From the NCBI GenBank assembly GCA_913058255.1, contig CAJXQU010000001.1, positions 566,886 through 605,052 of the forward strand: 38,167 bases of DNA, written 5' to 3'. The notes beneath the pieces are model-generated. The model searched no databases. It saw only the letters and a program-made list of their open reading frames with translations, and was not told where the DNA came from. The stretch comes from an uncultured Pseudomonadota bacterium (GTDB lineage Bacteria; Pseudomonadota; Gammaproteobacteria; CAJXQU01). The position numbers and the translations under genes were made by a program. Shown here one piece after another: positions 29,739-35,230 of the stretch (the first letter of the stretch is position 1; every line of letters begins with the position of its first letter).

Positions 29739-29999
29739 ATGAAAAAACTAAACGTAACGGGATCTCTTCTAGCGGTTGCAGCAGCAACATTGATCACTGC
29801 AGGCTGCGCGACTCCAACAGCCAGTACATCTGAGGCATCAACAGCAAAAGTTCACTGTAATGGCATTAACGAATGCAAAGGCCATGGTGCATGTGGCTCG
29901 GATTCGAATAGTTGTGCTGGACAGAATGCTTGTAAAGGACAAGGTTTTATAGAGTTAACAACTGACGAGTGCAAAGCTCAAGGCGGTACCGTCGGCTAA
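29739..29999 (+). CDS. bufA2: Bufferin-type RiPP precursor peptide (BufA2-like)
   Basis: This 86-residue peptide has an N-terminal signal (residues 1-22; the ITAGC end is only a weak lipobox) and a Cys-rich core. The core cysteines are Cys40, Cys46, Cys52, Cys59, Cys65 and Cys78, in the pattern HCNGINECKGHGACG, SCAGQNACKGQGF and DECKAQGG. This is the BufA2-type bufferin layout. Bufferins are ribosomal peptides whose Cys residues are modified by a DUF692/DUF2063 enzyme pair to bind copper in the periplasm. The enzyme genes follow directly. AGGTAA lies about 8 bases before the ATG. A Ser/Thr-rich spacer (25-37) separates signal and core. Confidence 0.88.
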   Translation: MKKLNVTGSLLAVAAATLITAGCATPTASTSEASTAKVHCNGINECKGHGACGSDSNSCAGQNACKGQGFIELTTDECKAQGGTVG

Positions 30000-30006
30000 A
30001 TTGAGT

Positions 30007-30043
30007 AAACGGGTTGGTTAGAATGAGATTCCTCAACCCGTTT
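30007..30043 (+). promoter_or_regulatory. Stem-loop between bufA and bufB (attenuator-like)
   Basis: AAACGGGTTG (30007-30016) pairs perfectly with CAACCCGTTT (30034-30043), and an inner GAAT/ATTC stem closes a three-base loop. It begins 8 bases after the bufA stop and the enzyme gene starts 10 bases after it. The T-run is short (TTT), so it most likely lets part of transcription through, or protects the 3' end of bufA mRNA. Confidence 0.75.
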
Positions 30044-30052
30044 AATTGAAAA

Positions 30053-30916
30053 ATGACTTGTCACTATAAAGATACGGATCAAAATACTCTTGAATATTTA
30101 GGTTTTGGTTTAGGCCTAAGAACCAAACACTACAAAACCATCATTGAAGAAAAACCACCGATAGATTGGTTTGAAATTTTAACTGAAAATTATTTAGTTC
30201 CCGGTGGAAAACCATTACATTATCTTCATAAAATTTGTAACGATTATCCTGTTGTTATGCATGGGGTTTCGTTATCGATAGGCTCCGTTGATGCTCTCGA
30301 CAAACAATATCTTTCTCAAGTAAAAAATCTGGCTGACCAGGTCGAAGCAAAATGGATTTCTGATCATCTTTGTTGGACAGGAATGTCAGGGAAGAATCTG
30401 CATGATCTCATGCCACTGCCTTACACCGAGGAAGCACTTGCTCACGTGGTTACGAGAATTGGTCAGGTACAAGAAATTTTAGGAAGACAGCTCCTAATTG
30501 AAAACCCATCAAGCTATCTTGAATTTAAACAATCGACAATGAGCGAGTGGACATTTATGCAAGCAATGGCCGAGCAAGCCGGTTGTTTGATCCTACTAGA
30601 CATTAATAATGTTTATGTTAGCAGTGTAAACCATAGCTTTGATCCGGTGACATATATAAATTCAATCCCTGTGGATCGAGTACAACAGATCCACCTTGCA
30701 GGCCATTTAAATTTAGGCACGCATATTATTGATACTCACGATCAACCGATAATCGATCCCGTATGGGAGTTATATGAGGTCGCGGTGAAGCGCTTCGGAA
30801 AAGTATCCACCATGATCGAACGTGACGATAACATTCCTCCTTTGAAAGAATTACAAAGAGAACTTGCTCAAGCCAAAGGCATTTCTGACCGAGTACTTGG
30901 TGCGATGTCGGCATGA
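30053..30916 (+). CDS. bufB: DUF692 multinuclear iron enzyme (BufB/MbnB-like)
   Basis: DUF692 enzymes are TIM barrels with two or three irons that modify Cys in peptide substrates; MbnB makes the oxazolone/thioamide of methanobactin. The metal-ligand segments are visible: WFEILTENYL, VVMHGVSLSIG, WISDHLCW, LLIENPSSYL, LLDINNVYVSSVNH, IHLAGH, IDTHDQP and TMIERDDNIPP. Length of 287 residues is normal. Its stop overlaps the start of the DUF2063 gene (ATGA), so the pair is coupled. The ribosome site is poor, which fits lower expression than the peptide. Function is from family knowledge; the exact product is inferred. Confidence 0.93.
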   Translation: MTCHYKDTDQNTLEYLGFGLGLRTKHYKTIIEEKPPIDWFEILTENYLVPGGKPLHYLHKICNDYPVVMHGVSLSIGSVDALDKQYLSQVKNLADQVEAKWISDHLCWTGMSGKNLHDLMPLPYTEEALAHVVTRIGQVQEILGRQLLIENPSSYLEFKQSTMSEWTFMQAMAEQAGCLILLDINNVYVSSVNHSFDPVTYINSIPVDRVQQIHLAGHLNLGTHIIDTHDQPIIDPVWELYEVAVKRFGKVSTMIERDDNIPPLKELQRELAQAKGISDRVLGAMSA

Positions 30917-31689
30917 GCGAACTTGAATATCTGCAAAAAAACTTCCAAAACTTGGTAGAGGAAGGGGGCGAGGACTTTAAGCAGAATGTTGTTGGAGATT
31001 CAAAAGAATTTATCAACACGCGAATAGCTATTTATTATGATGGTTATCGGCTGCGTCTGGCAGGTGTGCTTATGGCCGACTACCCAGGCTTACATACATT
31101 GATGGGAGACGAGCAATTTGAAACGCTTTGTCAAAAATACATAAAAGCCTACCCATCAGATCATTTTTCAGCGCGTTACTTTGGCCGTTTCATGTTACCG
31201 TTCTTGAGCACAGTCTCACCCTACAAAGAGCAGCCAATGTTAGCTGACATGGCGAGTTTTGAGTGGATGGTTGGTGAAGTATTAGATGCGGAGGATGCGG
31301 ATCTGTTTAGTTTAGAGCAGTTGCAAGATATATCCCCAGCTCGTTGGCCAACGTTGACCATCAGCTTACATCCATCATATAGAGAAGCTCCGCTGACATG
31401 GAATGCTCCAAAATTTTGGACTGAAGTCAAAGCCGAAAAAAATCCTGATTTACCGACGAAGTACTCAGAGCCGGTCAATTGGATTTTATGGAGAAAAGGC
31501 GTTGAGGTTTATTTTCGATCTCTAAAAAAAGATGAAGCTTGGGTACTTCAAGCTGTTCTCGAAGGCCATAATTTTTCTGAAATCTGTGAAGGGCTTTGTG
31601 AATGGGTTGAGGTAGAGGAAGTCGCCGCGCGTGTAGTAGGATTTCTACAAAATTGGCTGCTTGATGAAATGATTACATCCGTCGACTAA
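30913..31689 (+). CDS. bufC: DUF2063 partner protein (BufC/MbnC-like)
   Basis: DUF2063 proteins pair with DUF692 enzymes and present the precursor peptide. The N-terminal DUF2063 domain (about residues 1-95) shows RIAIYYDGYRLRLAGVLMADYPGL, then KYIKAYPSDHFSARYFGRFM. The C-terminal part (about 170-258) has EPVNWILWRKGVEVYFRSL and a winged-helix-like end, as in the family. It overlaps bufB by four bases. No DoxX-type membrane gene (often BufD) follows: the next gene is a convergent transporter. Confidence 0.92.
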   Translation: MSELEYLQKNFQNLVEEGGEDFKQNVVGDSKEFINTRIAIYYDGYRLRLAGVLMADYPGLHTLMGDEQFETLCQKYIKAYPSDHFSARYFGRFMLPFLSTVSPYKEQPMLADMASFEWMVGEVLDAEDADLFSLEQLQDISPARWPTLTISLHPSYREAPLTWNAPKFWTEVKAEKNPDLPTKYSEPVNWILWRKGVEVYFRSLKKDEAWVLQAVLEGHNFSEICEGLCEWVEVEEVAARVVGFLQNWLLDEMITSVD

Positions 31690-33012: not shown

Positions 33013-33306
33013 CTACTCGGCAGGCTTTTGGCTTCGATGCCCAGGTTTTGCTAGAATTTCCAAATAAAAAGATTCTTGTTGGTTTTCCTCCGCCTCCGAG
33101 ATATATTTATTAATTTCTGAGAGATGGATCACCTTACCGCTTGTTTCATCATCACCGAACTTGCAGTCAAAATCCCAAAAATCGACATCTTCTGGAAGCG
33201 TTTTATTACGTTCTCGTTTTATATATCTTTTAACTTCATGCTTTATCGCATCAACAAGTCTTGGAACTTTGATTTTAGGGTGGGTTAATTTAAACGTTTT
33301 TTTCAT
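33013..33306 (-). CDS. DUF6172 family small protein
   Basis: The block MKKTFKLTHPKIKVPRLVDA, then KRYIKRERNK, DVDFWDFDCKFG and FYLEILAKPG match the DUF6172 family of short cytoplasmic proteins of unknown function. I start at ATG 33306, the family start. An in-frame ATG 16 codons earlier is not supported, while GGAATT lies before the chosen one. This gives 97 residues. The gene stands alone in a region poor in genes. Confidence 0.75.
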   Translation of the reverse strand: MKKTFKLTHPKIKVPRLVDAIKHEVKRYIKRERNKTLPEDVDFWDFDCKFGDDETSGKVIHLSEINKYISEAEENQQESFYLEILAKPGHRSQKPAE

Positions 33307-33722
33307 AGTAATTCCATAAAGTGTAGTGGGTGTTTTTGAATACAAATACTTCAATTGTTGTCTGGCTTGAATATGGGGAGTTTAATAAATCATATCGACA
33401 TAAAAAATAACAGGCTAACCATAAGCCATCTGACATTCAAGGTTGAATTAAAACATAATAAAATGGACATGTTCATACGCTTCTTTCAGGGAACATGACA
33501 ATGATGAGCTATTGGTAATGCGGATAAAAACGCTAACACATATTATATCATACGCTAAGCTACGGCCCGAAGTCTCATCAGAATTATCAGCCTTGATTAA
33601 ACAATAACCTTCATATAGGCCAAGGTCTCGAGGAAATGCCCCTTTATTTATAATCTGTGCACAGAATTACTAAATAATAGGCTTGGAAGGTTTGATATGA
33701 GTGGCTAATCACTGCAATAGGG
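33307..33722. other. Intergenic stretch without a gene
   Basis: No reading frame or RNA gene is convincing here. A 7-base inverted repeat, CATGTTC at 33468-33474 and GAACATG at 33491-33497, could be an operator half-site pair or chance. The 292 bases between the transporter start (32720) and the DUF6172 stop are likewise featureless. Confidence 0.5.
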
Positions 33723-34339: not shown

Positions 34340-35230
34340 GTGGAATTAGCAACACGTAAATTATCTGAAATAGAAAGAAACAGCAAATACTTGAGGGTTG
34401 ATACGGATGTAGAAATGCTCAAAAAAAGTATCGAAAATGTAGGATTGATTAATCCATTAACGGTAAATAAAAACAATGAACTGCTAGCCGGGGCTAGACG
34501 TTTTCAGGCGGTGACCGAACTAGGCTGGTCTGAAGTGGATGTCCATATCGTGGATAGAGATCTATTGGAGCAGGAGCTAATCTCCATTGATGAGAATTTA
34601 GTACGAACCCCATTGAATAATTTAGAATTAGAGAAGTGCTTAAATCGCGGACGAGAGATTTATGAGCAGATAAACCCCGGGACTTTAAAGGTTAACTTCT
34701 CAACCAAAGAGCTAAGTCCAGAAGAAAAAAACAAACAGCAAGCTCAGGAAGATAAAGATAATGACTCTTTCGCCGCGATCACTGCGGAGAAGACTGGTTT
34801 GTCTAAAGCCGTCATCAAAAGTGCGATTAAGCGTGATGAGCTTGCATCAGACTCAGTTAAAAAAGCACGTGGTGCGGGGGAGTTAAACGCAACTCAAACC
34901 AATGTCATCATTGAGCTTGATAAAGAAATACAGGAAGCAGTGCTGCCGCTAATTACGGATAAAACAGTTAAAGAAACAAGAGAGATTATAAAAGCCGTGA
35001 AAGAGGGCGGAATAGAGGCTGCAAAAGAAGAAAGTGAAAATATCGTTCCTCTTCCTCAAGAATATAAGCTGCTCAAAAGTCCTTTAAAACGGGTCAGTAA
35101 GAACCTATCTCGAATTTTAGTGGAAGGTTTGAAATATGAAGGGCCTGAAAAAGAGCAGATAAACAAAGAGATGTTTGAACTTAAAGAGCAGCTTGATAAT
35201 TATTTTAAGATGGTAAACGGAGATGAGTAG
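34340..35230 (+). CDS. Orphan ParB-like nuclease-domain protein
   Basis: Residues 1-90 form a ParB/Srx-type N-terminal domain with the motif ELLAGARRFQAVTELGW (GARR at 51-54) that in ParB binds and hydrolyses CTP. A central helical region (about 95-200) with helix-turn-helix character (AITAEKTGLSKAVIKSAIKR) follows, and a charged C-terminal coil (about 235-296). The start is a GTG with AAGGGG about 8 bases before it. No ParA gene is next to it. Such orphan ParB proteins occur on plasmids, phages and mobile islands and may be repressors. Role unknown. Confidence 0.8.
   Translation: MELATRKLSEIERNSKYLRVDTDVEMLKKSIENVGLINPLTVNKNNELLAGARRFQAVTELGWSEVDVHIVDRDLLEQELISIDENLVRTPLNNLELEKCLNRGREIYEQINPGTLKVNFSTKELSPEEKNKQQAQEDKDNDSFAAITAEKTGLSKAVIKSAIKRDELASDSVKKARGAGELNATQTNVIIELDKEIQEAVLPLITDKTVKETREIIKAVKEGGIEAAKEESENIVPLPQEYKLLKSPLKRVSKNLSRILVEGLKYEGPEKEQINKEMFELKEQLDNYFKMVNGDE

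Follow-up and report, generated by a model that had tools for sequence, protein, structure and literature searches.

Buf2 bufferins (BufA2, or Buf_6/12Cys) are the closest described relatives of the locus reported here, and thousands of clusters of this kind have already been catalogued. Their precursors range from 51 to 367 amino acids, lipoprotein signals are predicted for about 16% of them, and their clusters in general carry no sigma/anti-sigma genes (PMC12452194). As of that study, no chemical structure had been identified for the Buf2 modification, and it was still open which of the cysteines are modified. With regard to the MNIO enzymes, Asp249 has been proposed as the catalytic base of FonB, and the residue after the base is Phe in enzymes of Lys-Cys (EGKCG) precursors and Asp in enzymes of Cys-Lys (BufA2) precursors, the latter also missing a second Arg (PMC13097082). 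Lipidated bufferins are predictions in the part of PMC12636315 that we draw on. Our locus adds one more member to this known kind of cluster; its useful additions are what is probably a lipid anchor on the peptide and a family-typical, substrate-matching residue in the enzyme.

The operon and its family assignment

The features found in the window (the whole stretch of 38,167 nucleotides that was analysed) are as follows; a slash marks the predicted cleavage point.

29739..29999, + strand: bufA2, precursor peptide, 86 aa, six core Cys (NCBIfam NF050166 Cu_RiPP_BufA2)
29739..29807, + strand: signal peptide with lipobox L18-I-T-A-G22/C23, predicted signal peptidase II site, C23 predicted lipidated (sequence, regular-expression lipobox test)
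30006..30044, + strand: stem-loop with a 12-bp stem, arms 30006-30017 and 30033-30044, weak T tail (z -2.97 vs shuffles)
30053..30916, + strand: bufB, MNIO (DUF692, PF05114) bufferin maturase, 287 aa (NF050167, PF05114, alignment with 3bww and 7dz9)
30913..31689, + strand: bufC, DUF2063 and RRE-type MNIO partner protein, 258 aa (PF09836, AlphaFold2 model)

An earlier note on this DNA had described a cluster of a BufA2-like peptide, a DUF692 enzyme and a DUF2063 partner. All three genes lie where it placed them, as open reading frames on the + strand, and the four-base overlap that it saw between the enzyme genes is present (ATGA). A profile search against the BufA, BufB and BufC families gave 86.4 bits for the bufA2 product with NF050166 (cut-off 60, E 1e-24) and 390 bits for the bufB product with NF050167 (cut-off 310, E 5e-117), both cut-offs being curated at the equivalog level. 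The bufB product also matched PF05114 in Pfam (E 1e-112), and the bufC product matched PF09836 (DUF2063) with 52 bits (cut-off 27.2). A check that could have refuted the earlier note, whether profile searches place the DUF692 protein outside the peptide-modifying clade, did not refute it. The gene at 29739-29999 was the sole BufA2 match in a genome-wide search. Because of these NCBIfam and Pfam assignments, together with the structural matches of the BufC model described below, the initial observation was real and its name was right.

On these profile matches we regard Buf2 membership of the cluster at 29739-31689 as firm, while the family is the basis on which we predict its chemistry, copper binding and lipidation. 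Our reading is that 29739-31689 is a complete Buf2-type bufferin (captophorin) RiPP operon; taken with the full mechanism proposed below, we give this reading a probability of about 0.85.

Enzyme and partner protein

The metal-ligand motifs noted earlier in the DUF692 enzyme held up in alignment. Residues H70, H105, E150, D183, H214, D227, H229 and E256 of BufB align with the solved structures 7dz9 (MbnB) and 3bww, are invariant in 24 homologues, and are the putative metal ligands, as in MNIO structures generally. Both marks of a BufB maturase, an NF050167 score above the cut-off and the putative MNIO metal-binding residues, were thereby found. D258 is the counterpart of FonB Asp249 and the putative catalytic base, and D259 occupies the specificity site (FonB Phe250, BufB2 Asp251) with the residue of the Cys-Lys subtype. 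BufB is also without the second Arg, reading GLGLRT where the EGKCG-type paralogue of the same genome, which has Phe at the specificity site, reads GLGLRR. Across 65 MNIOs from BufA2 loci, a set that includes the window and a few second MNIOs of another type, the specificity residue was Asp in 53 and Ala in 7. Judged from sequence, BufB appears to be paired with a Cys-Lys precursor.

The PDB search with the BufC sequence alone gave no match, and a profile of its homologues found 3dee. The AlphaFold2 model of BufC (mean pLDDT 93) matched 3dee, a partner protein from Neisseria, and TglI in the TglHI complex 8hi7, with weaker matches to RRE-type leader-peptide binders. HvfC was the sole NCBIfam partner model matched, far below its cut-off (38.5 bits against 142), and a partner so distant may simply be unmodelled. 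Sequence and predicted fold, which resembles that of known partner proteins, support BufC as a DUF2063 MNIO partner protein with an RRE-like domain.

Core cysteines of the precursor

The secreted 86-residue peptide was said to hold six core cysteines, and these are present (C40, C46, C52, C59, C65 and C78) and invariant in a 9-sequence alignment; a seventh, C23, stands at the end of the signal peptide. BufA2 combines an N-terminal Sec-type signal with six conserved cysteines, and it had no match in Pfam or in a PDB search with its sequence. The core had also been thought unusually short, a point that falls away since 86 amino acids lie within the published Buf2 range.

In the window peptide Lys follows Cys2, Cys5 and Cys6, with Gly after Cys3 and Ala after Cys4. 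When 90 BufA2 peptides were compared (the window peptide and the surveyed BufA2 loci), Lys followed Cys2 in 88 and Cys5 in 88, Cys3 in 68 and Cys4 in 73. If Lys is required, C46 and C65 would be the modified sites. Since two near-invariant Cys-Lys-Gly sites are kept and the other two are gone, the peptide would make a compact case for mapping the modified Buf2 cysteines. Separately, we observed BufA2-type precursors with extra Cys-Lys repeats inside the core in loci L142 (1925-2356), L052 (6276-6611) and L141 (978-1313).

Lipobox and tandem precursors

A signal peptide on BufA2 had been recognised earlier, and it is present; its type, that of a lipoprotein, had been overlooked. The signal ends in LITAG/C23-A and matches the lipobox pattern in a regular-expression test; its residue at -3 is Thr, not Leu. 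The BufA2 of the closest relative, from the same genus, aligns with LITTG/C at the equivalent position, and in that relative the signal peptide of a second BufA2, encoded in tandem, has no Cys at its end (TTASVYA). This suggests that the BufA2 product is probably anchored to the membrane by a lipid on C23. Lipidation of the window peptide is likely, yet it is a known minority state, and the simple lipobox pattern was found in 15 of the 90 BufA2 ORFs.

The same Buf2 operon could also yield a soluble periplasmic product, were signal peptidase I to cleave at the AGC site and leave C23 unlipidated. Thr at -3 is less usual in a lipobox, and ordinary signal peptides prevail among Buf2 peptides, the pattern being absent from 75 of the 90 ORFs. 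However, the charge-free hydrophobic stretch of the window peptide runs into AG/C and then into a low-complexity tether of Ser, Thr and Ala, as is typical of lipoproteins, and the same-genus orthologue keeps TTGC where its tandem paralogue has no Cys. We consider the soluble product unlikely and retain the lipid-anchored peptide as our reading.

In a first set of loci, 12 had two adjacent bufA2 genes; a lipobox precursor occurred in 10/12, compared with 8/70 single bufA2 genes (Fisher p 1e-6), and 9/12 combined one lipoprotein with one soluble peptide. In a second set, taken from the class, a lipobox copy occurred in 5/6 tandem loci, all five mixed, compared with 8/67 single genes (p 5e-4), and both gene orders were seen in this set. 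These p-values overstate independence, because the G002 locus and the window belong to both sets and related lineages recur. Tandem bufA2 genes, mostly one lipoprotein and one soluble, were observed in loci L026, L032, L035, L039, L045, L052, L055, L058, L095, L130, L138, L141 and L142. Tandem genes and lipoprotein signals are each mentioned, separately, in PMC12452194, where we found no description of their pairing.

Such pairing across Buf2 loci would suggest that bacteria buffer copper at the membrane as well as in the periplasmic fluid. We put forward tentatively, at somewhat below even odds, that Buf2 loci repeatedly form a two-compartment copper buffer in which the tandem pair usually supplies one anchored and one soluble peptide. 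The window, with a single bufA2 of the lipobox type and no second match genome-wide, would be the single-gene, anchored-only version.

A stem-loop between bufA2 and bufB

The stem-loop behind bufA2 had escaped the first inspection of the sequence. Over 60 loci, the first 75 bases past the bufA2 stop had a mean z of -2.8 with 43/60 below -2, compared with a mean of 0.05 and 3/60 below -2 in control windows 350 bases further on. A stem-loop stands 3' of bufA2 in most of these loci; its sequence varies between them, and in several it comes with the runs of T usual in terminators. In the same-genus relative, the lipobox bufA2 is followed by a strong hairpin that resembles a terminator and carries seven T. 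Scans for promoters and terminators yielded counts close to the shuffled mean and were set aside; the intergenic stem-loop escaped them because its loop exceeds the length that the scan allows. Leaky terminators and 3'-stabilising structures that favour precursor over enzyme are common in RiPP operons. The stem-loop in the window is likely to be one or the other and to raise precursor over enzyme.

Surroundings of the operon

Upstream of the cluster, on the opposite strand, lie genes for a ferredoxin with DUF3470, a P-II protein and an ammonium transporter, and downstream, also on the opposite strand, one for an EamA transporter. We take the operon to be the three genes alone, because the neighbours are all on the other strand and none is copper-linked. 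Recent import was considered and set aside, there being no clear sign of it in local base composition (GC 0.345-0.401 over the cluster, 0.353-0.460 elsewhere in the window). Further along, an ORF at 34340-35230 on the + strand has a ParB N-terminal domain (PF02195), with no adjoining parA among the listed ORFs, and a DUF6172 gene (33013-33354, other strand) lies near it.

No copper gene or copper regulator was found in the immediate surroundings. This would fit a bufferin-like metallophore whose metal is not copper, or one that serves against oxidative or metal stress in general, and there are bufferins with a MerC fusion that stand within mercury loci (PMC12452194). Nevertheless, the thiooxazole peptides characterised in PMC13097082 and PMC12538549 bind copper, Caulobacter Buf2 behaves like Buf1, and the window peptide has no MerC fusion. 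We judge a non-copper role improbable, and copper remains the metal of our reading.

The lack of a linked regulator, which had been called unusual, is the general state of Buf2 clusters with respect to sigma/anti-sigma genes (see above). The same applies to the lack of a DoxX-type gene: DoxX stood directly downstream of none of the 51 bufC genes surveyed in BufA2 loci, so that its absence is the rule there, and it occurred within two bufABC loci (L072, L069). Our home-made detection model does find DoxX, mainly just upstream of bufA2 in loci without bufBC. Such an arrangement, in some loci with DoxX overlapping the called start of bufA2, and in all with neither bufB nor bufC found nearby, was seen in L056, L075, L084, L087, L090, L092, L094 and L101. 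DoxX and bufA2 form a two-gene unit that recurs, and its precursor must either be modified elsewhere or stay unmodified.

A second MNIO system in the genome

Contig C21 of the same genome carries a second MNIO cluster (L002/L107, 1-2305), with an EGKCG-repeat precursor of the oxazolin type, HvfB (429.5 bits, cut-off 360) and HvfC (301.7 bits, cut-off 142); the contig start cuts the precursor, leaving only its end at the first bases. The specificity residues of the C21 and window enzymes differ as published for the two substrate types. Two MNIO systems in one genome, each with the residue (Asp or Phe) that matches its own precursor, are suited to a substrate-choice swap test. The EGKCG-precursor cluster occurs in both same-genus genomes and BufA2 in only one of them; the Buf2 operon is the accessory one of the two systems. 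The G002 contig ends just past the second bufA2, before any view of bufBC.

An accessory cluster that is missing its BufA2 from one of two same-genus genomes, and whose precursor has lost two of four Cys-Lys motifs, might be decaying or non-functional. Against this, the three frames are intact with all putative catalytic residues, the bufB-bufC overlap and the stem-loop are retained, and 10 of the 90 BufA2 peptides likewise have no Lys after both Cys3 and Cys4. We regard decay as very improbable and proceed with a functional Buf2 operon.

Proposed mechanism

In the mechanism that we propose, the RRE-like domain of BufC would bind the precursor in the cytoplasm and present it to the iron enzyme BufB, which would turn cysteines that precede Lys into 5-thiooxazoles by oxidation (about -4 Da each); Cys46 and Cys65 are the most probable sites. 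Once the modified peptide had been exported by the Sec machinery, Lgt would add the lipid at Cys23 and Lsp would cleave there. Anchored in the membrane, the product may then bind excess Cu(I) in the envelope, and the bufA2-bufB stem-loop may keep the precursor in excess over its enzymes.

Comparison with known systems

Two other identities were considered and rejected. For oxazolin/HvfABC, BufB reaches 279.7 where the HvfB cut-off is 360, BufC is below that of HvfC (38.5 against 142) and there are no EGKCG repeats; for Buf1, no DUF2282 match was found in the window peptide or the genome.

Oxazolin, HvfABC and fontiphorin systems (EGKCG, Lys-Cys captophorins; PMC13097082) likewise use an MNIO and a DUF2063 partner on a Cys-rich precursor that is secreted. 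Compared with oxazolin/HvfABC, the window enzyme has Asp rather than Phe at the specificity site and the precursor is without EGKCG repeats. Buf1 (DUF2282) bufferins have the same gene order and, by inference, the same function, but they carry four conserved Cys and a DUF2282 signature, whereas the window peptide has no Pfam match. DybA and NedA, as described in the part of PMC12636315 considered here, are likewise MNIO-modified precursors that enter the lipoprotein pathway, but their core motifs, CPACGMG and EGKCG, differ from those of the window peptide. The closest likeness is to the Buf2 bufferins (BufA2-BufB-BufC; PMC12452194; NF050166, NF050167), with which the locus shares the six-core-Cys precursor, the MNIO maturase, the DUF2063 partner, the strict ABC order, the lack of a linked regulator and the same profile families above curated cut-offs; within that family, its lipobox is the minority state and its Cys3 and Cys4 are without a following Lys.
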